Source: Thermococcus sp. JdFR-02 (lineage in GTDB: Archaea; Methanobacteriota_B; Thermococci; Thermococcales; Thermococcaceae). Taken from it: 45,442 bases of DNA. The DNA lies in contig MTLP01000001.1 in the NCBI GenBank assembly GCA_002009975.1, forward strand, positions 1 to 45,442. The letters run 5' to 3'. This document shows, in pieces, positions 7,937 through 32,361 of the stretch; within the stretch, counting starts at the first letter, position 1, and each line of letters opens with the position of its first letter. The notes beneath the pieces are model-generated. The model searched no databases, was not told the DNA's origin, and saw only the letters and a program-made list of their open reading frames with translations. The translations under genes and the position numbers were made by a program.

Positions 7937-8227
7937 ATGGGATATACTTTTTATTATAAAATTTCCCTGAGAGATGAGAACAAGATGTTAAGAGTCCTAA
8001 AACCTATAATAAATGAACTAGGATTTGAAATTTATGAAAAAGACGGTACTATAGTAATAAAGCCAGATCACGATTATGTGGAACTATTGATAATTAAAAA
8101 TGGAGAATGGATGAGTGTGAAAACCTATAAAAGAGAACCGTACACTGCAATTTATAAGCTAATACTGCTCTCATTTTCCTCTTTTGGCTCTGTTGAAGTA
8201 TTTGATGATGAAGGCTGGTCTAAATAA
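7937..8227 (+). CDS. hypothetical protein
   Basis: 96 residues, mixed alpha/beta, with alternating strands (TIVIKPDHDYVELLIIKNGEWMSVKTY) and no signal peptide or membrane segment. The ATG at 7937 follows GATGGGGG. The last 76 bases overlap, on the opposite strand, the 3' end of the DUF2101-like gene. Both overlapping ends encode poorly structured tails, so the overlap is plausible. I do not recognise the family. Confidence 0.65.
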   Translation: MGYTFYYKISLRDENKMLRVLKPIINELGFEIYEKDGTIVIKPDHDYVELLIIKNGEWMSVKTYKREPYTAIYKLILLSFSSFGSVEVFDDEGWSK

Positions 8228-8916
8228 ACCTCAATTATCTTTCTTGGAATTGCTCCTCTAAACATTCTTTCTTCAACCAGGACTTTTACTAATGAGCCAA
8301 CTTTTAAGTCTGGCACTGCATCAATCCAGTATTCACCGCTCTTCACATTTGCACAGATATCGTAGTGAGTACTTATCTTAACAACCTCTCCTCTTATCTC
8401 CTCAACTACCGCATAGGTCCAATCCCTTCCGTATTTCATTTTAAACCACTTGGCAAGAATTAAAACAGCCACGAAGATTACAATCGAATAAACTAGGAGA
8501 TATTGAAGCGTTGGATTAAACCTTCTGAGCACTGAGTATCCCATAAAGGCTCCAAGGGAGAGTATTGCCAATAAATAGAAAAATACCTGATAGGGCTTGT
8601 ATTCAATGAAGAACTCTTTGTAATTAATTAAAATAGCTCTCATGTACATAAAGAACAAGATAAAGAGCAATACCAAATACAGGGGATTACGTGAAAGCAC
8701 TGTTGAAATTAGAGATGCAATTAGATAGAGAATAAATGAGAGCTGAATTTTTAAAATTAGCATCTCATGTGCAGTAACCTTTCTCCTAACTATTTTCCTT
8801 AAAAATTTAAATGTTGGAGGGGTTTCTTTGGGTCTCGGGAGTATAATGTTCCTTATTGAGCCAAACAGGGACTCTATCATCTCGCCAATTTTATAGAACA
8901 AATTTTCTATCCTCAT
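8152..8916 (-). CDS. membrane protein, DUF2101-like
   Basis: 254 residues with four transmembrane segments at about residues 54-75, 78-100, 108-128 and 135-158. A cytosolic beta-rich domain follows (VVEEIRGEVVKISTHYD to LVKVLVEERMFRGAIP), resembling a small OB-type domain, and then a Ser/Glu-rich tail. The overall layout recalls the archaeal DUF2101 family. It is the last gene of the pilin-like operon, four bases after the preceding stop, with GGTGAAATC ahead of the ATG. A supporting role in the surface structure is inferred from position only. Confidence 0.75.
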   Translation of the reverse strand: MRIENLFYKIGEMIESLFGSIRNIILPRPKETPPTFKFLRKIVRRKVTAHEMLILKIQLSFILYLIASLISTVLSRNPLYLVLLFILFFMYMRAILINYKEFFIEYKPYQVFFYLLAILSLGAFMGYSVLRRFNPTLQYLLVYSIVIFVAVLILAKWFKMKYGRDWTYAVVEEIRGEVVKISTHYDICANVKSGEYWIDAVPDLKVGSLVKVLVEERMFRGAIPRKIIEVYLDQPSSSNTSTEPKEENESSISL

Positions 8917-8920
8917 GATT

Positions 8921-11425
8921 TCACCTCTTTAACAAATCTTGAGCACCTTGAGTTCCAAATATAGCAACAGCCGTTTGATTGTCAAGGAAGAAATACACAT
9001 TACTCAGATCTTCTTGAGAAACTACTCCATAGGAGATACCATAAACCCTGTACCCCTGTACTTGAGCGGTTGCATCATTTGCAAAGTAGTATTTTAGGAA
9101 GTAATAGTCGAAGCTTGTTTGGTTTTCTTCTAAGTTTATGTTTAAGCTATATACAAGGTTAAACAGCTTTTCGTCATACGCAGTATTGGGTATCATGAAA
9201 CTCACTAAGCCTATCGGATAATAGCTGTTTCCAAATTTTAAACCAAATTCATCCTGCATTTGTCTTGCCAGCTGTTCATAAGCATCATGATTTACAGTAC
9301 TTCCCTCTAGGCGTTCAAAGAATGAAACTCCGCTGTAAATACCAAAATATCTGTTGTCTGAAAGGCATTCTATAAATGGTTGAATATCATAGGCTCTTGA
9401 AGCGGCATAGCCGCCACTTGGTGTAGGTGGGGTGTATTGTTCTATATCATTCTCTGTTTTCATAGGAGATGTTATGTATATCCCACTAAAGTTAGTTGAA
9501 TCTTCTAAGGAGATTCCGTTTAAGTCAGGATACTTGCGCACAAATAGAAAATCATAGTAAGTTTTTCTCGCTTTTCTCTCGCTATCTGTTACGAGATAGA
9601 TGTATTTCAAAGGAGGATCAAACAGTCTTGGATAGTAATCATCATTGCTCCAGCTGTCTGTTATGTCCCTAAACTTGGCATCAGAGAATATCAAGCCCTG
9701 AACCACTATACTCTCATATATGTGGAAAGTTTTGACATCTGATCTGCCGATAGTATAGGTAAGGAAACTCCACCAAGGTCTGTGAACGGCTAATCCCTGA
9801 CCATTTGTACCGTAATCATCCGTGAACAAAAGCTTTAAGCCACTGCTGTCCTCTATTCCAATACCACTGTCCCAATCCCTGTTCTTTGCCGCCTTCATTC
9901 TAAACCTTACCGCAAATGAACCATCGTAGTTTATTTGATTCTTAGTTTTAACAACCTCAACTTCGTTCCCACCATTAATGACAAGCTCTCCATTGATTAC
10001 ACTTGGATTTTGGTCAACTTTCACCCATTTATCATTCCACGTTCCATCTTCCCAGTCATCAAAGAATATGAAGACACTATCTCCATCTCCTTTGGTTGTC
10101 ACACCTGAACCAAAGTATATTGAGTAAGTTTTTGACTGTCCAGCATTCAAAGAATCCCTAATCCAAATCAGAGCTTTTTTGTTAGTTGCATCCCAATACT
10201 CTATCCAGAAAGGTATCCTAGTTCCGCTTGTGTCATAAATGTCAATAGCGGCTTTGATCTTATAGATATCGCTTCCTTCTGTTTGGGTATTTGAAAATAG
10301 GAAATTAAGAACCTGAACTGTGAGGTCTTTTGACGTTGAAAGCAATATTGGAATTTGATAGTCAGCTAAATTCTGTCCAACATCGTTCCTAACGGTAATG
10401 TTGAGCCTATACTCAAGAGACGTGTTTGCCCAATTTGCTGTTCCTCCTCCACCGCTGGCATTTCCAAAAACTAAAACCCCTCTATCTCCCTCATCAAAAA
10501 CATCAGCTGGGGAAGTTTCAACCCCATTTAGTGTAGTGTTCACGATAACGTTATCTAATGTCGCACTTGGCTCATTTTCCAAGACATATCCCTTTGCAAG
10601 GGCACTTCCATCGGTAGGATACGTCTTTCCAAAGTATATCTCTGTAGTATCAACATCCCTCGATAACAGCCCGACAACGACTTGAGTGGTACCACTGCCA
10701 TTGCCTTCCAAGACTTTGAAAGGTCTATCCAACAATTCTGGAAAACTGTAATCACAAGCTTTTACCGAGCGATAATATCTACCCCCTGTTAGGGCTGAAA
10801 AAATTGGATCTTCTATGTTTTGCAAACTTACAATGGAATATAAATATCCATCCTCTGGAATTGAGCCAGTATACACAATCTTACCAGAAACGTCTCTAAT
10901 AGTAACATTTGGTATTTTAGCCTTTATGATAACCCTAAAAGAATCCAAAGGAGCTACAATTATCTCTATGTTATTCAAAATATCATTCACACTTGGATAG
11001 ATTGTAAAACCCTGCTTATTCAGCTCTTGAGTTAAATTGATCAGCCACCTCTTAATAGTTTGGTCTCCCATAATCCTTTGTGGATTATATCCAGTTAAGC
11101 TTGAAGAATTCCCAGTTAATATTAAATCTCTGATGGTGTTGTTTACCATATAATTTGGATCCACAAAGTCACCAGTATATGACACGTAATCAACCACAGT
11201 TATGATAGCCCTCTTACCCGAAATTTCTAAAGTATTCTGAAAATCTAAATCAAGATATGAAATTGTTCTATATGTTCTCTCAGCTTGTGTTCTTATACTT
11301 TGAGCGTGGAGAATTTGAGATGAGACGTCTTCATAAGTAGCCAAAAGCAGCACTAAGGGAATCAGGAGGAGCAGGACAAAAGAGTTTAGGAAGAATCCCT
11401 TTCTTCTCACTATTCTTCCCTCCAC
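8921..11425 (-). CDS. large surface protein with DUF2341-type domain
   Basis: 834 residues. One N-terminal membrane anchor (FLNSFVLLLLIPLVLLLATY, about residues 12-31) is preceded by basic residues, and the rest is predicted outside the cell. The DUF2341-type beta-sandwich spans roughly residues 335-465 (NITVRNDVGQNLADYQIPI, then FWIEYWDATNKKALIWI). DUF2341 is often found in archaeal surface proteins and may bind ligands such as carbohydrates. A further beta-rich segment and a C-terminal region follow. The N-terminus resembles prepilin-like anchors of its neighbours but lacks their Q-x-S-x-E motif. It overlaps the preceding gene by 16 bases. Confidence 0.8.
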   Translation of the reverse strand: MEGRIVRRKGFFLNSFVLLLLIPLVLLLATYEDVSSQILHAQSIRTQAERTYRTISYLDLDFQNTLEISGKRAIITVVDYVSYTGDFVDPNYMVNNTIRDLILTGNSSSLTGYNPQRIMGDQTIKRWLINLTQELNKQGFTIYPSVNDILNNIEIIVAPLDSFRVIIKAKIPNVTIRDVSGKIVYTGSIPEDGYLYSIVSLQNIEDPIFSALTGGRYYRSVKACDYSFPELLDRPFKVLEGNGSGTTQVVVGLLSRDVDTTEIYFGKTYPTDGSALAKGYVLENEPSATLDNVIVNTTLNGVETSPADVFDEGDRGVLVFGNASGGGGTANWANTSLEYRLNITVRNDVGQNLADYQIPILLSTSKDLTVQVLNFLFSNTQTEGSDIYKIKAAIDIYDTSGTRIPFWIEYWDATNKKALIWIRDSLNAGQSKTYSIYFGSGVTTKGDGDSVFIFFDDWEDGTWNDKWVKVDQNPSVINGELVINGGNEVEVVKTKNQINYDGSFAVRFRMKAAKNRDWDSGIGIEDSSGLKLLFTDDYGTNGQGLAVHRPWWSFLTYTIGRSDVKTFHIYESIVVQGLIFSDAKFRDITDSWSNDDYYPRLFDPPLKYIYLVTDSERKARKTYYDFLFVRKYPDLNGISLEDSTNFSGIYITSPMKTENDIEQYTPPTPSGGYAASRAYDIQPFIECLSDNRYFGIYSGVSFFERLEGSTVNHDAYEQLARQMQDEFGLKFGNSYYPIGLVSFMIPNTAYDEKLFNLVYSLNINLEENQTSFDYYFLKYYFANDATAQVQGYRVYGISYGVVSQEDLSNVYFFLDNQTAVAIFGTQGAQDLLKR

Positions 11426-13506
11426 ACTCTGAGAGTTATTGTTATAGGTTCAAAAAGCTTGGGTATATTTCCCATGTTGGCAAAGCTCATTTGTATTCCA
11501 GAAGTTAGATTAACGTCAATTGGATTTGTTAAAGAACCATCGTAAGGTATTGATGTCCATTCATTTGGATTGACATCATTTTCATAGTTCAATCTGTTAA
11601 ACAGCCTTAGAATTGCATCATCAACAGCATAAGTTGTCGGAGCTAATGAATCAACTGTTATGTTGCTATAGGGAGACTCTCCAACTAATATCTGTCTCTC
11701 ATAAGTATTTTCTCCATCACTGTACCAATAAGTTAGGTTATATCCTTTATAGATTGGATAACCCTGAAGAAGCTTTGGAAAAACATCCCCGTAACCTACA
11801 TATCCCTGAATGAAGTATTTAATGATTCCCCTTGTGTCGCCATTTCTAACATATGAACCTCCACCCACCATCTTTATTTCAAAGTTGTTTGTCTGTCCTG
11901 GAACCATCATCCAATCGTAAAGCTTAGTATATGCTACTCTAATAGCGTACCTTCCAAGGGGACCGCTGTAAAACTTTTGGTTGTTCTCCCAAAGCTCTTG
12001 GGTTGTAGAACCACTAAATGTGTAACCTACCCAGAAGTCAGCATACCAAGGAGTGCTGTTTTGTGGAAGATCATATGTTACCTGCAAGCCTCTCCCATTA
12101 TATGTTACTCTGCTATCTCCATAGGGGAAATAGATTGAAAGGGGAATGCTGTACTGGGTTGTAACGGTTTTTGAAACATAGTTGATTCTAAGATATGAAT
12201 CGGGGTAGCCATATAACATTCTCTGCCTGTTAGCAGCATCATTATAGGTGTCACCTTCATAATACCAATAACCGCCAGAATAATATGCATCAAAGCCTAC
12301 AACAAAATCAAAAACCATCTTACTCAAATCATCATAAGAAACACCCAGATTATTCAGTGCTGTCCTTATTTCACTATCCGTGAATTCAACAATAGCATCT
12401 CCATTGGTGTTTCCATTCTTTGTGTACAATAACGTTAAGTCTCCTCCAAATCCATAATAGAGTCTCACTTTACCAACATTCCTAACCTTAAATCTCATGC
12501 TTATGGATGTTATATTCCCAGGCACAAAATTTTCAAATAAATACATAAAACCTGTTCTTTTTGATATGACGTCATAAACCTTAATAATGTCAAGATCTTC
12601 CACGCTCAAAGAACTTGTTTCATACTTTATGTATAATGTTGTACCACTTGCCGAGCCTATTTCGCTTCCCCAAAGAATTCCTCCATATGAAAATACCAGC
12701 TTTATATTGTTCTCTCCACCTGAGAGATACGATGCCAAGTCGTCTCTATTTATTTCACCATATTCCCAGTCAACAAATTTGCCGTTTATGTATAAAGTAA
12801 TCCTTTCCCCTTGTCTGCTAACAAATTTCCCATCTGCACTTAATATGTTAGCATCGCTTGGCAAGGTTATATTCCTGCTAATCGTAAGTTCATTTATTCC
12901 ATTATCAGACCCTGCTGAAACCCTCATCCATCCATAGAGCTCTTTTCTGATAGTTTCAACTTTTGTTAAGTAAGCTCTCGCCATATACCCCCTTGGTGTT
13001 TGATTGTACGCATAGCCGCTCAAAACTAAAGTTGCTGGAGAAACATCTTTAGCTTTCGAATAATCACTTCCGACTTTCCTCAAATATGGACTCGTATAAT
13101 TATTTATCAAAAGCTCATAGTTGTAATCCTTTAACGTTCTGTTCAATACATATCCCAAAATTACCTCTGCTTTATGGGTTAAATTCTTAGAAGGATATAG
13201 AGGATCGGTAGCCCAATAGGTCGCAACAATCTCTAATGGGGACATGTCCTCATTTACCAGCTCAGAAAGTAATAATGGGTCACTTCCACTCTTCCATTCC
13301 TCAATTCTCTCCTGAGGAACTAAATCTCTTAAGCTAACAGTTCTTAATGTAGTTAATGTATCCTCGGCTACATATTTATCTTGCTCTCTAAGATAAGTTG
13401 AATAAACCTCTGTGTTGCTCTCTATTATAACGATGCTCGTAACAAATATGCTTACCAAAAGCAGGGAAAGTAATGCGTCTAATGTGAAAACATATCCCCT
13501 TCTCAT
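11410..13506 (-). CDS. pilin-like large surface protein
   Basis: 698 residues. The N-terminus MRRGYVFTLDALLSLLLVSIF has a short basic lead, a Gly, an acidic residue five positions later and then a hydrophobic helix, matching a type IV-prepilin-like signal with processing after Gly. The extracellular part is rich in Tyr, Ser, Thr, Asn and beta structure with many N-glycosylation sequons. Its start overlaps the stop of the gene upstream by four bases (ATGA). I infer a minor pilin or adhesive tip-type component; no enzymatic motif is seen. Confidence 0.78.
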   Translation of the reverse strand: MRRGYVFTLDALLSLLLVSIFVTSIVIIESNTEVYSTYLREQDKYVAEDTLTTLRTVSLRDLVPQERIEEWKSGSDPLLLSELVNEDMSPLEIVATYWATDPLYPSKNLTHKAEVILGYVLNRTLKDYNYELLINNYTSPYLRKVGSDYSKAKDVSPATLVLSGYAYNQTPRGYMARAYLTKVETIRKELYGWMRVSAGSDNGINELTISRNITLPSDANILSADGKFVSRQGERITLYINGKFVDWEYGEINRDDLASYLSGGENNIKLVFSYGGILWGSEIGSASGTTLYIKYETSSLSVEDLDIIKVYDVISKRTGFMYLFENFVPGNITSISMRFKVRNVGKVRLYYGFGGDLTLLYTKNGNTNGDAIVEFTDSEIRTALNNLGVSYDDLSKMVFDFVVGFDAYYSGGYWYYEGDTYNDAANRQRMLYGYPDSYLRINYVSKTVTTQYSIPLSIYFPYGDSRVTYNGRGLQVTYDLPQNSTPWYADFWVGYTFSGSTTQELWENNQKFYSGPLGRYAIRVAYTKLYDWMMVPGQTNNFEIKMVGGGSYVRNGDTRGIIKYFIQGYVGYGDVFPKLLQGYPIYKGYNLTYWYSDGENTYERQILVGESPYSNITVDSLAPTTYAVDDAILRLFNRLNYENDVNPNEWTSIPYDGSLTNPIDVNLTSGIQMSFANMGNIPKLFEPITITLRVWREE

Positions 13507-14903
13507 CTGTCATCCCATACCCAAAGCTTTACTTTAATCGGCTCAAACTTTGGTTCTAAGAGCAATCCAATGTTGTTTAAGTCTGTTAAAGTAACGCTGC
13601 TAAAGAATGTTTCATAAAGCCAGATTTCTACAATCTTTGCACCGTTTTCTGAATCGAATTGTCCAAAGATGTCACTCCATGGAATTCTTACAGTTGTTGT
13701 ATTTCCCCTATAAACTTTCGTGATGTTTTGATTCCCCGTTTTCCAGTGTAAAATACCCACAACATTTGAAGATGCATTGCTCTTGTATACTAAAAGCCCT
13801 TTTACCAAGCTTCCATCCAAAATCACAAATGTTACGTTTCCACTCTCATCACTTGGCACGTCTATTTTTAAGTATGAGTAACTCGGGACATTTTGCTTTA
13901 ATTTCCCAGCCATTAATTCTTTAGTCGAGCTTTGATTAATGTGTACAGTTTGGTTATAAATTAGTTTAGCAACAACAAAGCTCCTTTCTTGGTATTCGAT
14001 CCAAGGAGAACGATCTTTTGAAGCCTCTATTATTGCACTATTTTCCACAAGCGTTCCATTTATCATCACAATGCTGAAAGTTGCATTTGTAAGGTCGATT
14101 GGATATGTGAAGTTTTGGGAGAGTGTGAGGGTTCCCTGGGTGTAGCCGCTGGCTATTATGGCAACTTGTCCCTTTCCACTAACGTGGAGTTCTCCATTAT
14201 CATATGTAGCCTGCAAATTTGAAGTCCTTCCAGTAACGTAAACTTCTATATAGGAATATGCATCAATTTGATATTTCTCTTCGATCGTTCCTTTTTTTGC
14301 ATATATCCATATGTCCTGCAGTGCTTTAAAGGCCAATACACTGCCCACCTCTAAATCATAGGGTTGAGGTCTCTCAAGCAGAGGTTCTCCATTTAAAGTT
14401 ACATTAGTTGCGCTGAATGCTTCATTTCCAACCTGGTCCCCAGCTATGAAAATATTAACTTGATTTTCCCCATCTCCAAGGGTAATGTAGATATCCGTGG
14501 GAAAACTTCCGCTGATATTGATATCTTTCTTTAGCAGATAGAACTCCAATTGAAAGTCTTTCCAATAACTTAGGTTGAAGAGACTGTTTTTAATCCTGGG
14601 AGAATCTTTGGAGGAGTTTAGGGTTAAGAGCTTATCATAATCCAGAGCATTTGAATACTCAGAACTTCTTAGTCCCAAAACCTTCAACCCTTCGATATCA
14701 TCTTCCCAGTTTTCAGGATAACCTGGGCTTTTGGTCAATACATCAAGCATATTATTCGCAATGTTTGCCCTATCATACCATTCAATTAGATTTAGAATGT
14801 CAGCTTTGATAATGTCTCCCGTATTTAATATTATCCCAATAATCATGATGATTAGGATCAACGAAAGTAGGGCATCTACGGATAAGATTTGAGCCCTCCT
14901 CAT
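13503..14903 (-). CDS. pilin-like surface protein
   Basis: 466 residues. The N-terminus MRRAQILSVDALLSLILIIMI combines basic residues, an A-Q junction, an acidic residue at +5 and a hydrophobic helix, as in archaeal prepilin-like proteins. The remainder is extracellular, beta-rich and has many N-x-S/T sites. Four-base overlaps with both neighbours show tight translational coupling. It is paralogous in layout, but not closely in sequence, to the protein encoded next (11410-13506). Confidence 0.78.
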   Translation of the reverse strand: MRRAQILSVDALLSLILIIMIIGIILNTGDIIKADILNLIEWYDRANIANNMLDVLTKSPGYPENWEDDIEGLKVLGLRSSEYSNALDYDKLLTLNSSKDSPRIKNSLFNLSYWKDFQLEFYLLKKDINISGSFPTDIYITLGDGENQVNIFIAGDQVGNEAFSATNVTLNGEPLLERPQPYDLEVGSVLAFKALQDIWIYAKKGTIEEKYQIDAYSYIEVYVTGRTSNLQATYDNGELHVSGKGQVAIIASGYTQGTLTLSQNFTYPIDLTNATFSIVMINGTLVENSAIIEASKDRSPWIEYQERSFVVAKLIYNQTVHINQSSTKELMAGKLKQNVPSYSYLKIDVPSDESGNVTFVILDGSLVKGLLVYKSNASSNVVGILHWKTGNQNITKVYRGNTTTVRIPWSDIFGQFDSENGAKIVEIWLYETFFSSVTLTDLNNIGLLLEPKFEPIKVKLWVWDDR

Positions 14904-15373
14904 CTCTCAACCCTCACGTTTATTCTCACTATTGTATCGTCATAGAAGAGGGTTCCATTAATTTTAACAAAGTTCATTTTTGTTATAAGCTCTTCTTCAA
15001 TAAAAGTTTCTATGCTCTCTGCAAGCGTTTCATTGTTTATACTTGAATAGGGTGTTGATATCAAGATAGAGATGTTTAATTCATTATCATTTTGCACAAG
15101 ATTAAGCCTAACAACTCTTAAACGCGGATTTTGGCCATCTAAAGACATCAATATGCTGTTCAAAGTTGAATAGGGATATTTGTCTGAAAAGACACCAGTA
15201 TTTAAATAATCGCAGGCATGAGAAGCGGAAGCTCTAACATAGCTAACTACCGAAATAATCTTATTTTCTTCAAAATAGCTTGGGGTAAGTAATGCCACTA
15301 CCATTAGTATCAGGATAAATATGAATAGCATTTCTATAGCGCTCTGGGCTTTTTTACCCTTCAACTTTAACAT
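14900..15373 (-). CDS. class III signal peptide pilin-like protein
   Basis: 157 residues from the ATG at 15373, chosen because AGGGAT lies four to five bases upstream; two earlier in-frame starts lack a site. The N-terminus MLKLKGKKAQSAIEMLFIFI contains the Q-S-x-I-E core of archaeal class III signal peptides (DUF361-type), predicted to be cut after the Ala before Gln. A short extracellular domain follows. Size suits a major or minor pilin subunit. Confidence 0.82.
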   Translation of the reverse strand: MLKLKGKKAQSAIEMLFIFILILMVVALLTPSYFEENKIISVVSYVRASASHACDYLNTGVFSDKYPYSTLNSILMSLDGQNPRLRVVRLNLVQNDNELNISILISTPYSSINNETLAESIETFIEEELITKMNFVKINGTLFYDDTIVRINVRVER

Positions 15374-15782
15374 AAAGCATCCCTTCATTCTCATCATAAT
15401 AAGCTACGAGCCAAAACTCCTCTTCACTGCTTAAGGTTACATTGGAAGTATATAATGGGACGGTTGAATTCCTTACAATCCAAAAGCTCCTGCCATTTAC
15501 ACTCGCATTTACGGTGATTGTATTTTCTGTTCCATTGAATATTACCCTAATACTACCCCCATCCAAATTTGGAGCAATCTCTTTTATCTTATACCCTCTA
15601 CCAGTCGCATAAACCTTGCTCACATGATCAGAAAGCGATATTGAAAATATCTTAACATTAGTTAATACATCAAGTTCTTCAGAATGGGAAATTTCAGTAG
15701 TAGCTAAGTAGGTGAGGTTTGTAATAGTCACGATTATCATCAACACAGCAAACATCAAATCTATGCTAAGCTGTCCCCTCAT
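15354..15782 (-). CDS. class III signal peptide pilin-like protein
   Basis: 142 residues. MRGQLSIDLMFAVLMIIVTI has the class III core (G-Q-x-S-x-D), with Asp replacing the usual Glu, followed by the hydrophobic assembly helix. A compact beta-rich domain makes up the rest. The 3' end overlaps the next gene by 20 bases, and the upstream gene ends two bases before its ATG, so these are co-translated. Confidence 0.82.
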   Translation of the reverse strand: MRGQLSIDLMFAVLMIIVTITNLTYLATTEISHSEELDVLTNVKIFSISLSDHVSKVYATGRGYKIKEIAPNLDGGSIRVIFNGTENTITVNASVNGRSFWIVRNSTVPLYTSNVTLSSEEEFWLVAYYDENEGMLYVKVEG

Positions 15783-15784
15783 AT

Positions 15785-16414
15785 CTACCCACCAGGGTTA
15801 ATGTTTATCCTTAACTCGCTAGAAGTTATATTAAACGTCCACATTTCATTCCTATCTGGATTCCATTCAACTACTATCTTTACTTTGTTAGGAAGTTGAG
15901 TTGCATTCAAAACTATTCCATAATAGGTATTGCTTCCTGAAGTTACACTTCCGCTTGGATCATAAGCTGTTGGATCATTCAAGGTTTTTGCATATAATGA
16001 GAGTGCCCTAAAGACATTTTTCTTAATGGTACCATTATCCGCGAAATACAACTTACGGGTTGTGCTGTCCACTATTGCTACGTAAGTGTAATTTGACTGG
16101 TAACTTATGAAAATTTGAGGAGTTCCTGTCATGTTGAAAGCTTTTTTTAGTGAATCACTATTTCTTAAGTATCTCAATGTGACATAGGTTGTTGCTTTAG
16201 AACCTGAGCCTTGAGCATAAACTTGAGAGATTGTGTTGGAAATAGAGTTTGCAAAGCTTCTAGCCTCTAAACTAGCATCCACCCTCAAAAGTTCAACAGC
16301 TTGAGATTCTTGGGTGAATGTTACGTTGCTGAGAGAATAAGCTAACATCATGAGTATTATGCTGAATATGAACATAAATTCCAGGGAAATTTGACCTTTT
16401 TTCATAATCCTCAC
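15785..16414 (-). CDS. class III signal peptide pilin-like protein, probable major subunit candidate
   Basis: 209 residues. MRIMKKGQISLEFMFIFSII carries the canonical archaeal class III motif K-G-Q-x-S-x-E-F, predicted to be processed between Gly and Gln by a prepilin peptidase. The following 25-residue helix would form the filament core. This is the best match to the motif in the operon and the first pilin gene in transcription order, so it may be the main subunit, which is inference. A 41-base gap separates it from the membrane protein gene upstream. Confidence 0.85.
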   Translation of the reverse strand: MRIMKKGQISLEFMFIFSIILMMLAYSLSNVTFTQESQAVELLRVDASLEARSFANSISNTISQVYAQGSGSKATTYVTLRYLRNSDSLKKAFNMTGTPQIFISYQSNYTYVAIVDSTTRKLYFADNGTIKKNVFRALSLYAKTLNDPTAYDPSGSVTSGSNTYYGIVLNATQLPNKVKIVVEWNPDRNEMWTFNITSSELRININPGG

Positions 16415-16455
16415 TTCTCAGAATACTATACGGTCAAAAAAGTATTTAATAATTG

Positions 16456-17076
16456 TTATTCACTATTGCTGGTATCTTTCTCATTTTTGACTATTGCAAA
16501 AGTCGTCATGCCAACTCTTCTTATCAAGACTCCAAAATATCCATGGGTGAAGATTTTAAATTTGTACTTATTGCTATCGAGAGAGTGCGTTTTTATCAAT
16601 TGCCTCAGCTCATCTATGAAAAACTGGGTCAATTGGTAGTATCCAAAATCTAGAACTTCCCTCTTGTACCTCTGCAAAAACAAGATCAAAGGTAAAATAC
16701 TAATGCCTAAAATAAACAGAGGTTCATTTAGTAGAACTGAAGCTCCAATGCTTGAAATAAACAGAATTAGTATAAGCAAAATCCCAACATTGACGTAATT
16801 CTTGGTTTTCTTTATGTAACGAACTTTTTTCTCCCATATGTTCAGCAGCGCTGGATTATAGAAATCAAATGCCGTATGCCTCTTTCCTTTTTGAATCCTC
16901 TTTTTAATCAAATCATCCCAATCATCTTCATAATAAATAATCTCTCCCCTGTTTTTTGCTCTCTCAGCATCAAGAGATGAAATTATCCTTATTATATCTT
17001 CAGCACTTTCGTGGGCTATATGCGAATACACCTCTTTTTCATCAAGGTCTAAAGCAACATCTATTGAGTCCTTCAT
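16456..17076 (-). CDS. two-helix membrane protein of the pilin/CetZ operon
   Basis: 206 residues. An acidic cytosolic N-terminus of about 95 residues is followed by a hairpin of two membrane helices (VNVGILLILILFISSIGA and PLFILGISILPLILFLQ). A basic cytosolic C-terminal domain follows. Its ATG overlaps the cetZ stop (ATGA), so the two proteins are made together. A role linking the tubulin-like protein to the membrane is an attractive inference. I do not recognise the family. Confidence 0.75.
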   Translation of the reverse strand: MKDSIDVALDLDEKEVYSHIAHESAEDIIRIISSLDAERAKNRGEIIYYEDDWDDLIKKRIQKGKRHTAFDFYNPALLNIWEKKVRYIKKTKNYVNVGILLILILFISSIGASVLLNEPLFILGISILPLILFLQRYKREVLDFGYYQLTQFFIDELRQLIKTHSLDSNKYKFKIFTHGYFGVLIRRVGMTTFAIVKNEKDTSNSE

Positions 17077-18164
17077 TTAACCCCACCTGCATAAATATCA
17101 TCAAAATCTGGCAATCCGGACAAAAGCTCTGTCTTTTTCGTTTTAGCCTCTTTTTTGGCTTCAATAAAAGATTGGGCATATTTCTTAGCAGTTATCACTA
17201 TATCCTCAATGCTTTTGCTCTCATATATTCCGCTTAATAAAGTCACAACCTCTATTTCCTTCTCCCTCGGATCTGGATAAAAGCCTCTAAAGATCTGTCT
17301 TCCCTTAATTTTGTTTGTTAAGTAGCTTAAAGCATCAAATATCTCATCAGCCCTTAACACATATGGAGGACCGTGTACAGCAACTAAAGCATATAACGCT
17401 GACTCTATGCTCGCATCTAAGTAAAGCCCTTCGTTTTCAAAGGATTTTAGAATCAATCTTGAGAGGTTTTTAACACGAGAAGGTTCTTCCTTTGCATAAC
17501 CAATTGTTGCAAAGCTTCCAAATGCCTTTAGAACAAACTTCAAATCACTCGCATCTAAAGTCTGCTCCCCAGGGACATCGACTAAGCTCAAAAGAGAAGC
17601 TATCCTCTCCACTATCGTGTAGTTTATCTTCTCATAAGCTTTGCTTATATCGTAAGCACTTTCTTTAAGCTTGTTGTTGTCAATTGCTATAATAGAGTCT
17701 GCAATTTTTGAAAGCTTATCTATTGTAATTGCAGCGTTTATCGTAGGTCTTATACCCTCCTCTCTTAGTGGCAGCGCTCCAATAGCAACCACTAAAGAGT
17801 CTGGATATTCACTTTTTAGGGCTTTGGCTAACACAGGGGTTCCTCCAGCACCAGTACCTCCACCAAATCCGAAGGTTAGGAAAAATATATCCACGTCTTC
17901 ATAACCAACTATGGAATCTATTTCCATCATAACTACGTTTAAGTCTCTCCTCATAGCATCTCTTCCTAACACAGGATTTCCATTTACTCCCTTTCCTCCA
18001 ACTATGCTCTCACCAATCAAGATTCTACGCTCATGAGGGATGTGCTTTAAATACTCTAAATCACTCTTTGAAGTGTTTATAGCAATAGCTTCAAAGTCCA
18101 CGAGGGAGAATATGTCTGCAATTTTAGTTCCGCATTGACCGATTCCTATTATTAAAGCCCTCAT
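17073..18164 (-). CDS. cetZ: CetZ-like tubulin/FtsZ superfamily GTPase
   Basis: 363 residues. The tubulin signature loop GGGTGAGG lies at residues 101-108, preceded by the GIGQCGTKIAD nucleotide-binding loop at residues 7-17. The sequence diverges from canonical FtsZ and fits the CetZ group (FtsZ3-type in Thermococcales), which polymerises with GTP and in haloarchaea controls cell shape and motility-related structures. It lacks the long FtsZ C-terminal tail. It sits between a secreted toroid protein (4-base gap) and a membrane protein in an operon of pilin-like genes, pointing to a role in placing a surface apparatus rather than in division. GGTGATGAA precedes the ATG. Confidence 0.88.
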   Translation of the reverse strand: MRALIIGIGQCGTKIADIFSLVDFEAIAINTSKSDLEYLKHIPHERRILIGESIVGGKGVNGNPVLGRDAMRRDLNVVMMEIDSIVGYEDVDIFFLTFGFGGGTGAGGTPVLAKALKSEYPDSLVVAIGALPLREEGIRPTINAAITIDKLSKIADSIIAIDNNKLKESAYDISKAYEKINYTIVERIASLLSLVDVPGEQTLDASDLKFVLKAFGSFATIGYAKEEPSRVKNLSRLILKSFENEGLYLDASIESALYALVAVHGPPYVLRADEIFDALSYLTNKIKGRQIFRGFYPDPREKEIEVVTLLSGIYESKSIEDIVITAKKYAQSFIEAKKEAKTKKTELLSGLPDFDDIYAGGVK

Positions 18165-18168
18165 TTCA

Positions 18169-20421
18169 TCACCTCACAAACTCCACACTCAAATCGCTCA
18201 GATCAACAACACCATTCGAGTTCTTATCCTCGTAAGATACTACCAAAGCTCTTCCTTTGAGATACTTGATTAGACCAGACTCAAAGATCTCAACTACAAC
18301 ATTATCCAACCCTTTTTCATAGAACACAAACAGCACATATCCCATCTCGGTCTTTCCTGGAGCCAAGATCACAGTGTTTGAAACATCGTAGGTTTTGTTC
18401 TCCAGGTTTATAGTTCCATTTTTAACCTCTAACTTTACATATGGGTTATATTCCTCCAAGTTCAGGCTAAAGTCCGTCAATATTATATAATTCAAGTCCC
18501 CAATTTCCTCGAACTTCTCAACGCTGACGTTTGCCTCAAAGAACTTCTCTATTGAATCTTTCACCTTTATTGCGGTATCTTCTCTATCATCGATATAGAG
18601 CACGGCAAATTTTTCATCCCTTATTCTTCTCACAACATCGTAAAGGTTCGTCTTTGGTATGAACTTGAATTGAGAGAGATACATGGTAGCTAAGGCTAAG
18701 TCGATTACCGTTTTACCCCACACGCCATCATGCTCTTTTTCCATAACCCATTCCAAGGTTTCTTGTTTGTAATCATAGCCAAATTTAGCCAAAACCTCTG
18801 TAGCCCTGATAGTCAGCTCAACAGTAGGCTCTTCCTTGTATTGGAAAACTCCAAATAGATAATGCTCTTTCATGTTAGCCCATCCACCATCGGTTCTTTG
18901 CTCGATAAGCCACTCTAAATGTGATTGAAGTTCTTCCTTTGTTGAAATGTTTTGAAGGGCTTCAAGAACCTCCAAAGTTACTGAAACTTCTGAAGGTAGC
19001 ATGTAGGAATAGCTTTTTGTTTCAATATACGTTCCCCATCCCTCACTGGAAATTGAGAGTAGCCATGATTTTGCTTCTTCAATATCTGGATCATCTGATG
19101 AAACTCCCAATGCCATCAAAGCTTTCACAGCAAGTGCAGTATCAAAGGGCTGAGGACCTAAAAAGTTGCCCCATTTACCATTGCTAAGCTTTATGCTCTT
19201 TATTAATTCTATATGCTCCTTCTTTTCCTCTTCACTCAACATATCAAACTCTGAGAGCGTCAATAAAGCGTATATGTATGGCGAATAAATTTCTCTCTCT
19301 TCTTTAACCATCAATGTTAATGTGGGAAGTCTTTCTTTCATCCAGTTAAGCCCATTCTCTATGCTCACATCTCTAAAGTAGCACAGCCTTAAAGCTTTTA
19401 GTGCATAATAGGTTGTTTTTTCGTTTGAGGGGAATCCCCTAATATAGCTCCATCCACCATCAGGATTTTGGGCTTCTTTTAAAGCACCGCAGGATTCCTT
19501 GAAGGGATTTTCTAAGCCAGAGCTTAATTTATCACTAACCAGTGAAAAGCTCAAAGTTGCATAGGCAGAGGCTTTGACGATTTCACTTGATTTGAACAAT
19601 CCGCTCTCATCCTTCCAGTAAAACATCTCTTCTCCTTCTTTTAAATCCTCAAGCAAAATCAATGCCTTTGCAACATCAAAGTTTACATCCTCATAACTCA
19701 CAAGAACAAAGGTCAAAAATGCTCTCTCAGATGTTGGGATACCCTTTTCAGAGAAGAGATACTCCTTTACGAGACCTACCATAAAATCATAATCATAGGG
19801 ATAACCAACGCTTTTGTACGCCAAGATTCTTAATCCAAGGGCAGTGTAGTTGCTAATTCCACCGATGTCTGCATTTTTCAAGTAAATTATGGCATTTTTG
19901 ATAATCGGATTCCTCCATATATAACCATTCTCTCCTAAAGCCCACACCGCAAGTACAGTTGGATAAAACTCAGTGCTGGTATCTTTTACGTAGCCCCAAG
20001 CTTCTCCATTATAGGCTTCCAAAAGGAAATCAATCCCATGATCAAGAGAATGCGAAACTTTAGAATACATCAGAGAGCCTTTTTCATAGACGTTTAATGC
20101 TCTTTTAAGGGCAATGAGAGCGTAGGAAGTGTCAACGACATTACTCGCACTTCCATTTGTATAACCCCATCCACCATCATCGTTTTGATATTCCAATAAA
20201 GTGTTCATGAAATAGTCAATATCTCCTGAGATATTGCCCTCAACTTTTTCCTTTGCATCTATTAAAGCCAACAGAGATAGGCTTAAATCCTGAGTGCGGA
20301 CTATAAGCGTTTCAGCCTCGGATAAAAACTCAACTGATCCATCTAACAAAGGCTTAGCACTCACAGGTACGTAAGAAATAACCATGATTACAACCAGTAT
20401 TAATGAAAGCACGCGCTTCAT
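18169..20421 (-). CDS. secreted prenyltransferase/squalene-cyclase-like repeat protein
   Basis: 750 residues with a signal peptide (residues 1-22, ending VPVSAKP). It has many alpha/alpha-toroid repeats containing Q-x-x-D-G-G-W motifs: QNDDGGWGY at 79-87, QNPDGGWSY near 315 and a TDGGWAN copy near 515. This repeat belongs to the squalene cyclase / protein prenyltransferase beta / complement C3 TED superfamily. Secreted archaeal members are of unknown function and may bind ligands or surface polymers. A C-terminal region of about 150 residues ends in VVDLSDLSVEFVR, a dockerin-like or calcium-loop-like stretch (DKNSNGVVDLSDL). It is the first gene of the operon, with a TATA-like element near 20460. 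Confidence 0.82.
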   Translation of the reverse strand: MKRVLSLILVVIMVISYVPVSAKPLLDGSVEFLSEAETLIVRTQDLSLSLLALIDAKEKVEGNISGDIDYFMNTLLEYQNDDGGWGYTNGSASNVVDTSYALIALKRALNVYEKGSLMYSKVSHSLDHGIDFLLEAYNGEAWGYVKDTSTEFYPTVLAVWALGENGYIWRNPIIKNAIIYLKNADIGGISNYTALGLRILAYKSVGYPYDYDFMVGLVKEYLFSEKGIPTSERAFLTFVLVSYEDVNFDVAKALILLEDLKEGEEMFYWKDESGLFKSSEIVKASAYATLSFSLVSDKLSSGLENPFKESCGALKEAQNPDGGWSYIRGFPSNEKTTYYALKALRLCYFRDVSIENGLNWMKERLPTLTLMVKEEREIYSPYIYALLTLSEFDMLSEEEKKEHIELIKSIKLSNGKWGNFLGPQPFDTALAVKALMALGVSSDDPDIEEAKSWLLSISSEGWGTYIETKSYSYMLPSEVSVTLEVLEALQNISTKEELQSHLEWLIEQRTDGGWANMKEHYLFGVFQYKEEPTVELTIRATEVLAKFGYDYKQETLEWVMEKEHDGVWGKTVIDLALATMYLSQFKFIPKTNLYDVVRRIRDEKFAVLYIDDREDTAIKVKDSIEKFFEANVSVEKFEEIGDLNYIILTDFSLNLEEYNPYVKLEVKNGTINLENKTYDVSNTVILAPGKTEMGYVLFVFYEKGLDNVVVEIFESGLIKYLKGRALVVSYEDKNSNGVVDLSDLSVEFVR

Positions 20422-20454
20422 TTTGATACCCTCTTACATAAAATGCTTTCCAAA

Positions 20455-20470
20455 AATAAATAAGCTTTTC
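20455..20470 (-). promoter_or_regulatory. TATA region of the pilin-like operon
   Basis: On the minus strand GCTTATTTATTTTTGG lies about 40 bases upstream of the ATG at 20421, which has AGAGGG as ribosome binding site. It is the only clear TATA-like element before a set of genes whose later junctions are short or overlapping, so the nine genes down to 8152 are probably one transcript. Confidence 0.45.
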
Positions 20471-20500
20471 CAATAGCTTAGGCATGAGAAAAATAAAAGC

Positions 20501-25781: not shown

Positions 25782-25928
25782 TCACCCAAATAGCTGTTGT
25801 AATATTTCCTTGACAATCTTACTTCCATATTTGGCAATTAACGGCAAACTTTTTTGTCCTACCGATTTAACAAAAGGTATTATAGCTCCAGTGCTGAGCT
25901 CATATGAATTTGTTGATTTGTTGTTTTC
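25782..25928 (-). pseudogene. startless fragment encoding an amphipathic C-terminal tip
   Basis: An open stretch in another frame from the end of the 25880 gene codes for ENNKSTNSYELSTG followed by GAIIPFVKSVGQKSLPLIAK and YGSKIVKEILQQLFG. The last 35 residues form a cationic amphipathic helix pattern like membrane-active peptides. No ATG, GTG or TTG is placed for its translation as a unit. It directly precedes a small membrane gene. I interpret it as a silent toxin tip; the upstream part of the same frame, back to an ATG at 26063, is only a shadow of the overlapping gene. Confidence 0.5.
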
Positions 25929-26422
25929 AAAAGTTTTAATGCACCGAGGATGTGAATTGTGCCAAAGGCTAAAATTGCCAATGTTTGGAAAGGTGACTCT
26001 GTAAATGTCAGTAGCATCCCACTCCAGAACAAGAGGAGGTAAGTCATTATACTGCCTTTCCACTTACCTGTAAGCTGTACAATCAGATAAAACGCAACAC
26101 TCACCAAGACAATTCTTGATGAAAATGCTAAGTATATTAATGCTCCAAGGGTCAATCCATCCACCAGATGAAGAGGTCTTAATGCCTTGGCGAGTATTAG
26201 GAATCCAAAGATTACAAGCCAGCCCAATATGCTACTTTTTGTTCCTGCCATTATTGTACTCCAGAATAAGAGAACATGTGGCAAGCCCAAATAAAGATTC
26301 AGCAGATACTCAAGCCGCTTCTGCTCAAGGGCACTAAATGTAGCAAAGTATACTAACATAAAAACAAGCAACAACACAGGAATAAAAACTAAAAGAAAGG
26401 CAGGAATTTCCCCAAAATTCAT
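25880..26422 (-). CDS. polytopic membrane protein, array immunity-type
   Basis: 180 residues with about five or six membrane helices and short loops, and no recognisable family motif. Its ATG at 26422 overlaps the stop of the NNLIVGDES reading frame (TCATGA), and GGGGATGAG in that element serves as ribosome binding site. The position after a tip fragment suggests an immunity role. The 3' end is followed in another frame by the amphipathic fragment 25782-25928. Confidence 0.7.
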   Translation of the reverse strand: MNFGEIPAFLLVFIPVLLLVFMLVYFATFSALEQKRLEYLLNLYLGLPHVLLFWSTIMAGTKSSILGWLVIFGFLILAKALRPLHLVDGLTLGALIYLAFSSRIVLVSVAFYLIVQLTGKWKGSIMTYLLLFWSGMLLTFTESPFQTLAILAFGTIHILGALKLLKTTNQQIHMSSALEL

Positions 26423-26454
26423 GACTCATCCCCCACTATAAGGTTGTTGTCTCC
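26419..26454 (-). repeat. IIGD element (encodes GDNNLIVGDES)
   Basis: GGAGACAACAACCTTATAGT followed by GGGGGATGAGTCATGA. The reading frame is bounded upstream by TAG, so it is cut off from any gene, yet its sequence is kept. It ends at the start codon of the next membrane gene and supplies its ribosome binding site. Related copies lie at 26695, 26983, 27474, 27960, 28953, 29520 and 30894. Confidence 0.7.
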
Positions 26455-26476
26455 CTAGTTCTGTTATTTCCTTTTA

Positions 26477-26518
26477 GATTCATCTCAATCACGTAAGTAA
26501 ATCTTCTGTTGGTGTTAG
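26477..26518. repeat. direct repeat, copy A (paired with 26742-26808)
   Basis: Covers the 3' end of the 68-residue membrane gene and the spacer after it: AGATTCATCTCAATCACGTA then GTAAATCTTCTGTTGGTG. The same sequence recurs at 26742-26808, where about 22 extra bases are flanked by ACGTAA. In both copies a side frame encodes TYV-x-EMN-x-KG. Confidence 0.65.
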
Positions 26519-26695
26519 GAGATATGCTATGAATATTAAGCCTGCGAACACAATGAAAACAAAGTGAACTACGAATAAGATTTCTGAAAGAGTCATGTTT
26601 TCAAACAAATCCGTAGCTAGTGCTGCAACAAACCAAATAAAAATGTAAAGAATAAGGAGCCATCTAGAAAGGACTTTAGGTATCTTGACCTTCAT
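26489..26695 (-). CDS. two-helix membrane protein, array immunity-type, paralogue 1
   Basis: 68 residues: basic N-terminus MKVKIPKVLSRW, two membrane segments (LLILYIFIWFVAALATDLF and ILFVVHFVFIVFAGLIFIAYLL), then LTPTEDLLT. It is paralogous to the next gene upstream (26780), sharing the T/A-PTEDL end and DNA beyond the stop. The ATG at 26695 overlaps the stop of the NNLIVGDN frame and uses its GGGGGAT site. Confidence 0.7.
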   Translation of the reverse strand: MKVKIPKVLSRWLLILYIFIWFVAALATDLFENMTLSEILFVVHFVFIVFAGLIFIAYLLTPTEDLLT

Positions 26696-26724
26696 CAATT
26701 ATCCCCCACTATTAAGTTGTTACC
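26695..26724 (-). repeat. IIGD element (encodes GNNLIVGDN)
   Basis: GGTAACAACTTAATAGTGGG then GGATAATTGATG. The frame is closed upstream by TGA, leaving a nine-codon relic. It abuts the start of the 26489-26695 gene and provides its ribosome binding site. Confidence 0.7.
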
Positions 26725-26741
26725 TCATCTAATATTCCCTT

Positions 26742-26808
26742 TGGATTCATTTCACTCACGTAAGTTAGTTGATCAGGTTCTAACGTAAATCTTCTGTTGG
26801 TGCTAAAA
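26742..26808. repeat. direct repeat, copy B (paired with 26477-26518)
   Basis: Second copy of the junction repeat downstream of the 67-residue membrane gene. The side frame reads RRFTLEPDQLTYVSEMNPKG followed by ILDEVTT and a stop. The TYVSEMNPKG portion resembles FVIQMNPEPTG in the module at 27960-28451, suggesting both derive from the same toxin-type domain. Confidence 0.6.
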
Positions 26809-26983
26809 GATTCCAAATATACAAGAACACTAGTATTACTAGGAATGTTATAGTAGCTAATCCTAAAATCTCTTTAATACTGGCTTTCTCTGGCCATGCA
26901 AAAACAGAGAGAAAAAGAGAAATTATGTATATCTTGAGGAGATTTTTTGCATCTTTCAAGTCCGTACTCAAACTTAGAGGCAT
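26780..26983 (-). CDS. two-helix membrane protein, array immunity-type, paralogue 2
   Basis: 67 residues from the ATG at 26983: LKDAKNLLKIYIISLFLSVF, a second helix (ILGLATITFLVILVFLYIW) and the end NLLAPTEDLR. It is paralogous to 26489-26695. GGGTGATGA of the preceding IIGD element is its ribosome binding site, and start and stop codons overlap (TGATG). Confidence 0.7.
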   Translation of the reverse strand: MPLSLSTDLKDAKNLLKIYIISLFLSVFAWPEKASIKEILGLATITFLVILVFLYIWNLLAPTEDLR

Positions 26984-27033
26984 CACTCATCACCCACTAT
27001 TAAGTTGTTATTCACATTTGTGACGGCTTCTGT
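26983..27033 (-). pseudogene. startless tip remnant ending NNNLIVGDE
   Basis: A frame offset from the 3' end of the 27012 gene encodes TEAVTNVNNNLIVGDE and stops at the ATG of the next membrane gene. It is another copy of the IIGD element (AATAACAACTTAATAGTGGG then TGATGAGTGATG). No start codon is placed for it. Confidence 0.55.
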
Positions 27034-27461
27034 CCCACCTCTTTCCGTATTATGTGAGAGTAAAGTGCTAGGACTGAGTAGGCGAAGTACACCACACCTA
27101 ACGCAATCCCTACTTTCACTGAACCAAGCTTCCAGTAAGTCATGACAAACGACAGTGCACACAGGCCGATCAAATACATCACACACAGTGCTGGACTCTC
27201 TGAGATTTTTCCAAGCACTCTCCCATTTATTTTGTTCTTCGCTATTAACAGCATGGACGCAAACGCCCCAACATATCCAGCGAGTTCATAAACTAGACCA
27301 AGGACTAACAGGATAGTCATAACCGTTGCTAGAGAGAGCACAGGTATAGTTTCATTTTTCCAATTCTTGGAGACTCCTTCTGCTACAATCATATAACTTA
27401 CTGAAACAATGAAAATAAAGTTAAGGACAAAGTAAACTAGGAATATGTCCACTAGACCCAC
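27012..27461 (-). CDS. polytopic membrane protein, array immunity-type
   Basis: 149 residues from GTG at 27461, chosen because GGTGAT lies four bases upstream; a GTG at 27470 overlaps that site. About four membrane helices are visible (VDIFLVYFVLNFIFIVSVSY and others), with a basic end RKEVGQKPSQM. It follows the IIED-type element at 27474. No family recognised; immunity role inferred from the array pattern. Confidence 0.68.
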   Translation of the reverse strand: MGLVDIFLVYFVLNFIFIVSVSYMIVAEGVSKNWKNETIPVLSLATVMTILLVLGLVYELAGYVGAFASMLLIAKNKINGRVLGKISESPALCVMYLIGLCALSFVMTYWKLGSVKVGIALGVVYFAYSVLALYSHIIRKEVGQKPSQM

Positions 27462-27473
27462 TAATATCACCCC

Positions 27474-27548
27474 TTAATCCTCAATTATTAAGTTATTATC
27501 TCCTGAATCATTGGGAAGTTCCACGTCAAATCTTAAATTATTTAGTCC
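27474..27548 (-). pseudogene. startless tip remnant ending DNNLIIED
   Basis: The frame encodes GLNNLRFDVELPNDSGDNN then LIIED and a stop, overlapping the end of the 27538 gene in the +1 frame. The element (GGAGATAATAACTTAATAAT then TGAGGATTAAGGGGTGAT) lacks the usual GGD but keeps the NNLII core. It leads into the GTG start of the next membrane gene. Confidence 0.55.
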
Positions 27549-27945
27549 TTAGGAGCAGTGCCATATAAGCTCCGTGAATCAATGCTGAAGTCAATATGGC
27601 GAATTTCACTGGGAGTTCGAAGGTTGTTAGTATGTATGCACAGATCAATAACATGGTCAATATGTATAGAATGCTGTAGTTGAATTTTCTGGCTAGGATT
27701 CCTAAGGTCTTGTCTTCTAGGCTGGTCTTAGTCATTGCTATTCCATATGCTAGGAAGGCAAGGGCCCCAGCTCCTTCGTGAAGTTTGCCAAAGATTAAAG
27801 TTATTGTCAGCATTGTGGGGGCGGAGAGGATGGGAGTCCTGGTATCAACCTTGGACTTCGGAGTTCCAATCACCTGAAGGATAAAAATTAGGAGAATAAA
27901 GAAAGCATTTGCAGAGATATAGAATCCAACAATTCCAACTCCCAT
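27538..27945 (-). CDS. polytopic membrane protein, array immunity-type
   Basis: 135 residues with four hydrophobic helices, the first at the very N-terminus (VGIVGFYISANAFFILLIFI). GGTGATATTCG precedes the ATG, 12 bases after the stop of the toxin-type module at 27960, so it is the clear candidate partner for that module. No enzymatic motif. Confidence 0.7.
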   Translation of the reverse strand: MGVGIVGFYISANAFFILLIFILQVIGTPKSKVDTRTPILSAPTMLTITLIFGKLHEGAGALAFLAYGIAMTKTSLEDKTLGILARKFNYSILYILTMLLICAYILTTFELPVKFAILTSALIHGAYMALLLRTK

Positions 27946-27959
27946 CGAATATCACCTTG

Positions 27960-28451
27960 TTAGTTATCTCCGATAATGAGGTTGTTATCTCCTGGGTCGT
28001 CTGGAGGTATTGGTTCATTCATTACATGCCATACGAATTCTATATATAATACAAATATCCCTGCAATACCCCCAGCTGTTTTTGATGATACCTCAAGACC
28101 ATACCTCTCTGCAGATTTTTGAATTGCTTTGGTAAGACCTACCCATCCAGCTACTGTCTTGTAGTCACTAACTTTTCCCACTACCTCATTCTTAATTTTA
28201 ACAACTACACCGTATGCTCCCTTTACAACATCCCAAACCCCAGTTGGCTCTGGATTCATTTGTATTACGAACATTGTTGGGTTTTCTAGTTGATTTAGAT
28301 AAGCTTTGATTGCTATTGGTGTTCCTGGGTTCATGTCACTTAAATCCACTGGAATCCTCTCCTGTAATTCATCATTAATCGGAATCGTGAAAGTGAACGT
28401 TCCAGTGGAGTATGAGCTTAAACTCAAACTGCTCGGATTCGGAATTACCAA
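27960..28451 (-). CDS. silent toxin-type C-terminal module ending DNNLIIGDN
   Basis: An open frame of 163 codons without an ATG start; only TTG at 28451 is available and it lacks a good site. The first 70 residues are beta-rich (SSYSTGTFTFTIPI, then PTMFVIQMNPEPTG) like the Ig-type domains of secreted proteins. Next comes a helical region (VWDVVKGAYGVVVKIKNEVV), then a hydrophobic segment (GGIAGIFVLYIEFVWHVM) and PPDDPGDNNLIIGDN. It has no signal peptide. It looks like the 3' part of a secreted toxin that must be recombined onto an expressed gene to be made. Its partner is the membrane gene at 27538. Confidence 0.6.
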   Translation of the reverse strand: MVIPNPSSLSLSSYSTGTFTFTIPINDELQERIPVDLSDMNPGTPIAIKAYLNQLENPTMFVIQMNPEPTGVWDVVKGAYGVVVKIKNEVVGKVSDYKTVAGWVGLTKAIQKSAERYGLEVSSKTAGGIAGIFVLYIEFVWHVMNEPIPPDDPGDNNLIIGDN

Positions 28452-28951
28452 GTTATCACTTCTTGGATATTGCCTGTTTTATAATTATGTAAGTATCTGA
28501 TTGATAGGAGAGCATAAACTACCAGAGGAGGTATTATTCCGATTATGTGGCTGGTTCTTAGTTTTCTGCAGAGCAACTTTAGCATTCCCACTGACATTAG
28601 TCCAAGTATGAGAGTGTTCACGAGTATTATACGTTCCTTCAAGTTCATTGAGAACCTTATAAACCTCTCACGCTGGTATTTTAGTCTAGCTGCTAAAATC
28701 GATGCCAAAGCAGTTGTCATAAGGATTCCCATTATTGCCGGGATTGAGTTGTTTAATCTTATTGAGAGTAGCATTCCAAAAATTCCCATCAGTACCAGGT
28801 ACGGAAAAACAACAATATCCACACCAAACTCTGGCAACTTACTTTCCACTTCGCCAACCAAGGGACGCATCCCCTCGTACTTAAAAACCAACACTAAAAT
28901 GAGAAAAACAAAAACAAAAAGAACCATGCCAAAATATACCTCACACATCAT
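28445..28951 (-). CDS. polytopic membrane protein, array immunity-type
   Basis: 168 residues from the ATG at 28951, which follows GGGGATGG of the preceding element; the frame stays open upstream but has no site there. About five membrane helices are seen (VYFGMVLFVFVFLILVLVF and others). The 3' end overlaps the start of the module at 27960 by a few bases. A frame on the opposite strand of this gene is a shadow. Confidence 0.68.
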   Translation of the reverse strand: MMCEVYFGMVLFVFVFLILVLVFKYEGMRPLVGEVESKLPEFGVDIVVFPYLVLMGIFGMLLSIRLNNSIPAIMGILMTTALASILAARLKYQRERFIRFSMNLKERIILVNTLILGLMSVGMLKLLCRKLRTSHIIGIIPPLVVYALLSIRYLHNYKTGNIQEVITW

Positions 28952-28952
28952 T

Positions 28953-29048
28953 TCAACCACCATCCCCACAGATCGAGTTTCCGTCAGTTTTAGTGTAGTT
29001 GTGTAGAGAATCATAAGATACAGCTAAGTTGTCAGTCTCGTTGATCTT
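28953..29048 (-). pseudogene. startless tip remnant ending DGNSICGDGG
   Basis: A frame distinct from the 29024 gene encodes KINETDNLAVSYDSLHNYTK then TDGNSICGDGG. The end is a diverged IIGD element (GATGGAAACTCGATCTGTGG) whose GGGGATGG acts as ribosome binding site for the gene at 28951. The frame extends further upstream only as a shadow of the membrane gene. Confidence 0.5.
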
Positions 29049-29515: not shown

Positions 29516-29519
29516 ATCA

Positions 29520-30888: not shown

Positions 30889-30893
30889 GCCCG

Positions 30894-31061
30894 CTACCCT
30901 CCTATGACTTTGTTTCCATCAGTTTCTACAAAATCTTCTGAATACTTCCACAACCACCACACCTCTTTTGCAATTCTAACTAACTTTTCAATTGCAATCC
31001 AGATAGCATTTTTAGGGGTTTCTATGACAGATTTATATTCCTCCTTTTTGCTCTTGTTGAG
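30894..31061 (-). pseudogene. startless 55-codon toxin-tip fragment ending DGNKVIGG
   Basis: Open for 55 codons between TAA and TAG with no usable start: LNKSKKEEYKSVIETPKNAI, then WIAIEKLVRIAKEVWWLWKY, then SEDFVETDGNKVIGG. The middle is a Trp-rich cationic amphipathic helix. It overlaps the end of the 31033 gene in the +1 frame. Its last codons (GATGGAAACAAAGTCATAGG) are an IIGD element and provide GGAGGG for the next gene. It reads as intact protein but cannot be expressed on its own. Confidence 0.55.
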
Positions 31062-31413: not shown

Positions 31414-31434
31414 ATGTACCACCCTCCAAAATTG

Positions 31435-31998: not shown

Positions 31999-32011
31999 AG
32001 GGCACCTACTA

Positions 32012-32356: not shown

Positions 32357-32361
32357 TGTAC

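Follow-up and report, generated by a model that had tools for sequence, protein, structure and literature searches.

Loci that combine an FtsZ-family GTPase gene with a squalene cyclase gene have been described within the clade-1 type IV pilus (T4P) loci of most Thermococci by Makarova 2016 (PMC4858521), where DUF2341 proteins were also proposed to be tip adhesins, and Methanococcus maripaludis requires the minor pilins of this clade to form its pili (PMC4858521). According to Brown & Duggin 2023 (PMC9856176), every Thermococcales cetZ region analysed is associated with pili, CetZ-T4P neighbourhoods recur in Halobacteria, and CetZ is found without adjacent pili in other archaea and orders; the same study gives the placement of Thermococcales proteins in the CetZ clade. 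In Haloferax, CetZ1 helps to position the surface motility machinery, that is, archaellum and chemotaxis proteins (PMC11621097).

The linkage of cetZ to pili was thus already known from Makarova 2016 and Brown & Duggin 2023. The locus described here lies in a 45,442-nt stretch of DNA from Thermococcus sp. JdFR-02 (hereafter the window, one of the contigs of a 2.36 Mb genome) and is the same as the cetZ/type IV pili-like region of Thermococcales, with cetZ beside arCOG-defined pilins (PMC9856176). To the part of that description available to us we add the predicted promoters of two modules, a genome (G202) in which the locus is split, a match between the tail of CetZ and the membrane protein tm2, and exchangeable protein cores. 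The locus has minor pilins and DUF2341 proteins, the proposed tip adhesins, in common with the clade-1 T4P loci that Thermococci share with class I methanogens (PMC4858521), but differs from them in having no ATPase, TadC or peptidase genes; these are encoded at other places in the genome. CetZ also stands beside T4P genes in the cetZ2 - pilB2/C2 regulon of Halobacteria, although there the genes for the ATPase and the platform protein are neighbours (PMC9856176). The VARTIG islands of Thermococcales (PMC8416519) likewise encode hypervariable surface proteins, within the same archaeal order, but involve different genes (a large Ig/CARDB protein), whereas the present locus varies by core replacement in pilin-like proteins.

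Results

A ten-gene locus conserved in Thermococcaceae

An earlier note, made from the sequence alone, had listed nine minus-strand genes between positions 8152 and 20421; the ORFs, their strand and their coordinates were recovered, and their number is ten. First in the direction of transcription is the squalene-cyclase-like repeat protein tor (18169-20421, 750 aa), a secreted-type alpha/alpha toroid protein with SQHop_cyclase_N/C and Prenyltrans domains above the Pfam cut-off, followed by the CetZ-type GTPase (17073-18164), which matches the tubulin-superfamily domain PF00091 with 105 bits, and by tm2 (16456-17076), a membrane protein with hydrophobic helices at residues 97-115 and 116-134. 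At the other end, the four-helix protein (8152-8916) matches DUF2101 (PF09874, 201 bits) and has four hydrophobic helices, and it is preceded by the DUF2341 protein (8921-11425), which Pfam likewise identified. The five genes in between encode pilin-like proteins and are treated below. PHROGs gave no virus-like match that would explain the other genes tested in the window.

The comparison set comprised 61 genomes, 37 from Thermococcaceae and 24 from outside the family. Orthologues of cetZ with 80-85% identity were found in 36 of the 37 family genomes, the remaining one being 75% complete, and in none of the 24 others, where the best match reached 37% (G058). The closest CetZ relatives (L081-L102) carry the labels Thermococcus, Thermococci, Thermococcales or Thermococcaceae, and the family is accordingly treated as Thermococcaceae. 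Of its 32 full-length loci, 30 preserve the order of all ten genes, which is far beyond chance, and each of the two deviating loci is one gene short (L066 of genome G021 has no tor, L060 no recognised DUF2101 gene). Within the family, where almost every genome has cetZ, tm2 and the pilins, their co-occurrence says little. The encoded proteins differ strongly in conservation, with a mean majority-residue frequency of 0.90 for CetZ against 0.47-0.60 for the pilin-like proteins.

Two probable modules with separate predicted promoters

The earlier note had read the genes as a single operon and had named separate promoters as evidence that would speak against it. A single operon is now doubtful, since one TATA-like element precedes tor, a second lies between tm2 and pilA, and the two halves are found apart in G202; the promoters themselves are predictions from motifs. 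At the tm2-pilA junction (16415-16455, minus strand), the element TTAAATA occurs in 46 of 47 loci against a background of ~2%, and in only 0-2 loci at each of the other nine junctions. It sits 39-46 nt from the pilA start in 30 of the 31 loci measured, while its position relative to the tm2 stop varies from -36 to +56, a pattern expected from a TATA box that belongs to pilA. TATA boxes of Thermococcus lie ~20-30 nt ahead of the start site (PMC4247193, PMC5316973). A different element stands upstream of tor, in the gap between tyw1 and tor (20422-20500, minus strand), where the window has TTATTTATT after GGAAAA; most loci have TTTATTTATT, or a sequence very like it, after GGAAAA, and TTTATT or TTATTT is present in 45 of 50 windows upstream of tor. 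A sigma-70 promoter scan is uninformative for archaea.

In genome G202, the locus is split exactly at the tm2-pilA junction and both halves are kept. One contig (L097) carries tyw1-tor-cetZ-tm2 followed by unrelated genes, and another (L118) carries pilA to the DUF2101 gene beside guaA, with GTTAAATAG, which includes TTAAATA, retained before pilA; the DUF2101 gene thus stays with the pilin module. Together, these observations suggest that the locus consists of two adjacent modules with a predicted promoter each.

The same observations are what one would expect if tor-cetZ-tm2 were a module of its own, serving the envelope or cell shape and only by position a neighbour of a minor pilin operon, the arrangement being inherited synteny and the products forming no joint machine. 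The occurrence of CetZ without adjacent pili in other orders (PMC9856176) fits such independence too. Against it, every other complete family locus examined retains the linkage, and neighbourhoods of CetZ and T4P genes recur beyond the family, both in Halobacteria (PMC9856176) and in G058, a genome from another archaeal phylum in which a CetZ-like gene lies near TadC-like genes (L108). We regard independence of the two modules as a serious possibility, though a minority one.

CetZ and its candidate membrane partner

The assignment of the GTPase to CetZ is supported by the C-terminal domain PF21011 (CetZ_C; 54.4 bits against a cut-off of 21.6) and by the GTPase signature GGGTGAG, which reads GFGGGTGAGG in the alignment. 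The source genome has three tubulin-family genes, and cetZ is distinct from its FtsZ genes, the two others being stronger Tubulin-family matches on contigs C3 and C9. After a charged linker, CetZ carries the C-terminal peptide LLxGLPDFDDxY in 33 of 33 aligned proteins, with a conservative change of D to E in one of them as the sole deviation.

The neighbouring tm2 combines a near-invariant cytosolic N-terminus of ~85 residues with variable membrane and C-terminal parts. The 36 family genomes with cetZ are also those in which tm2 occurs, with one further match (E=9e-4) among the 61 genomes, and a search with the tm2 model in the phylum of G058 returned nothing, while the same model recovers the family members. 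The AlphaFold model is mostly helical (pLDDT 79), and a fold search gave no significant relative in the PDB. In FtsZ proteins, a conserved peptide in the tail is what binds the membrane anchor; given this precedent, the near-invariant N-terminus of tm2 and the conserved tail of CetZ, our best inference is that tm2 is the candidate membrane tether of CetZ, with the tail peptide probably contacting tm2.

Separately, G058 carries three nearly adjacent CetZ-like genes (L070, contig C37, 7001-11127) with one membrane-protein gene between them and no T4P genes nearby.

Pilin-like proteins with exchangeable cores

Three small class III signal-peptide pilins had been proposed, and they differ in how clearly Pfam recognises them. 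The first, pilA (15785-16414, minus strand, with a likely ATG start at 16405), has a variable core and scores above the cut-off (Class_IIIsignal, 31.4 bits); pilC (14900-15397, minus strand) shows the motif KAQSAIE, a helix and a weak Class_IIIsignal match below the cut-off, and pilB (15354-15782, minus strand) is recognised by motif only, having RGQLSID and a single helix at its N-terminus and being syntenic across the family. The two larger proteins with prepilin-like anchors, big1 (13503-14903) and big2 (11410-13506), both on the minus strand, have no Pfam family, but each has one N-terminal hydrophobic helix (residues 6-24 after RRAQ in big1) and a variable core. Both have D rather than E, displaced by one position from the usual +5, and the DUF2341 protein lacks an acidic residue at this place. 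Full-length relatives of big2 are confined to the family; candidate relatives outside it were discarded because the matches are short and almost all of them cover the N-terminal (prepilin) end.

The variability is concentrated in the cores. We screened 15 pairs of loci whose CetZ proteins are at least 95.5% identical, counting a core replacement where both ends share 75% identity or more and some stretch of the core falls below 40%. Among these pairs, which are not independent of each other, core replacement was found in 4 for pilA, 2 for big1, 3 for big2 and 6 for the DUF2341 protein, and in none for the other six genes of the locus. At the DNA level, identity between L036 and L040 is mostly 90-100% along the locus and drops to 38-59% in the DUF2341 core; the same pattern is seen in the big2 core of L056/L059, and in pilA, big1, big2 and the DUF2341 gene of L042/L046. 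Such core exchange may have been reported before.

The DUF2341 domain, which 14 of 17 members carry, spans residues 394-467 of the window protein (62 bits, Pfam) and lies within its variable core, flanked by conserved ends. The predicted structure of this anchored candidate tip adhesin (pLDDT 77, pTM 0.52) matches lectin-type domains over ~200 residues, among them the carbohydrate-recognition domains of Emp46/47 and ERGIC-53, and we infer that the lectin-like match falls in the DUF2341 core. The combination suggests sugar-binding tips under diversifying exchange. A second DUF2341 domain is encoded in the source genome (G000:C7:34548-34787) within a 690-aa open frame.

Elsewhere in the window, an island (25880-35370, minus strand) whose membrane and soluble proteins are for the most part without matches lies downstream of a 1002-aa secreted CARDB-domain protein and resembles the published VARTIG islands.

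Candidate assembly machinery

The ORFs and their Pfam matches contain no ATPase and no platform protein within the locus, as had been stated before. Contig C2 of the source genome encodes a T4P ATPase and two T2SSF (TadC-like) proteins, all conserved in the family, with an ATPase homologue in nearly all family genomes, and this machine would build the pili in which the products of the locus are used. The C2 ATPase (L078, 3493-6615, minus strand) contains an intein with a LAGLIDADG domain, and its family homologues occur as frames of either ~600 aa or >800 aa, which suggests that presence of the intein varies.

A second T4P system on contig C29 (L076, 1401-7370) comprises a 1084-aa protein that fuses two T2SSE ATPase domains, along with a pair of TadC-like proteins and a pair of small class III pilins. 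Beyond the source genome, G058 is the only one of the 61 genomes to have the double ATPase at full length (71% identity), which suggests transfer. As a partner machine this tandem-ATPase system was rejected, because its full-length form is shared with G058 only and the C2 ATPase is family-wide.

The absence of assembly genes from the locus, together with the displaced or missing acidic residues of big1, big2 and the DUF2341 protein, would also agree with a pilin module that forms a short pseudopilus or an anchored adhesin complex displaying the large proteins at the surface, rather than the tip and base of a true pilus. The canonical class III signal of pilA and the requirement for clade-1 minor pilins in the pili of M. 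maripaludis (PMC4858521) argue otherwise, and we consider such a complex unlikely.

The toroid protein

A hydrophobic segment at residues 4-22 of tor suggests export, and nearly all of the protein is replaced between L042 and L055. Although tor matches SQHop and Prenyltrans above the Pfam cut-off, its function as an active squalene or terpene cyclase in a lipid-making locus is highly improbable and was rejected, because the catalytic DxDD motif is absent from the window protein, the only 3 members out of 32 in the family that contain it have it at positions unrelated to one another, and the putative export signal also speaks against it.

Discussion

We give a probability of roughly one half to the reading that this is an accessory locus of Thermococcaceae CetZ and clade-1 T4P, composed of two separately promoted modules, in which CetZ organises the site of the pilus. 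The first module (tor-cetZ-tm2) would provide a CetZ polymer and a secreted toroid protein, together with tm2 as the probable membrane tether of that polymer, the GLPDFDD tail of CetZ docking on the cytosolic N-terminus of tm2. The second module (pilA to DUF2101) would add a lectin-like tip adhesin and minor pilins, both with outer cores that can be exchanged, for use in pili that the C2 ATPase and the two TadC-like proteins assemble, and CetZ would organise the site or cell pole at which these pili are built. Judged by the precedent of CetZ1 and the archaellum (PMC11621097), a role of CetZ in placing or orienting the pilus is plausible. A more specific version, in which the tm2 tether couples the CetZ polymer to the pilus site and lectin-like cores are swapped between relatives for recognition or virus escape, is offered tentatively and remains rather doubtful.

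The observations of the earlier note are partly confirmed and its interpretation partly supported: the connection that it drew of CetZ to a type IV pilus-like system has good support and has been published (PMC4858521, PMC9856176), while the single joint machine that it proposed is weakened by the separate predicted promoters and by the split in G202.

If tm2 is the membrane partner of CetZ, the gene pair gives a direct handle on CetZ anchoring outside the haloarchaea. The exchangeable cores of the pilins and the adhesin point to recombination-driven variation of the archaeal surface, with a logic akin to that of bacterial pilin variation.
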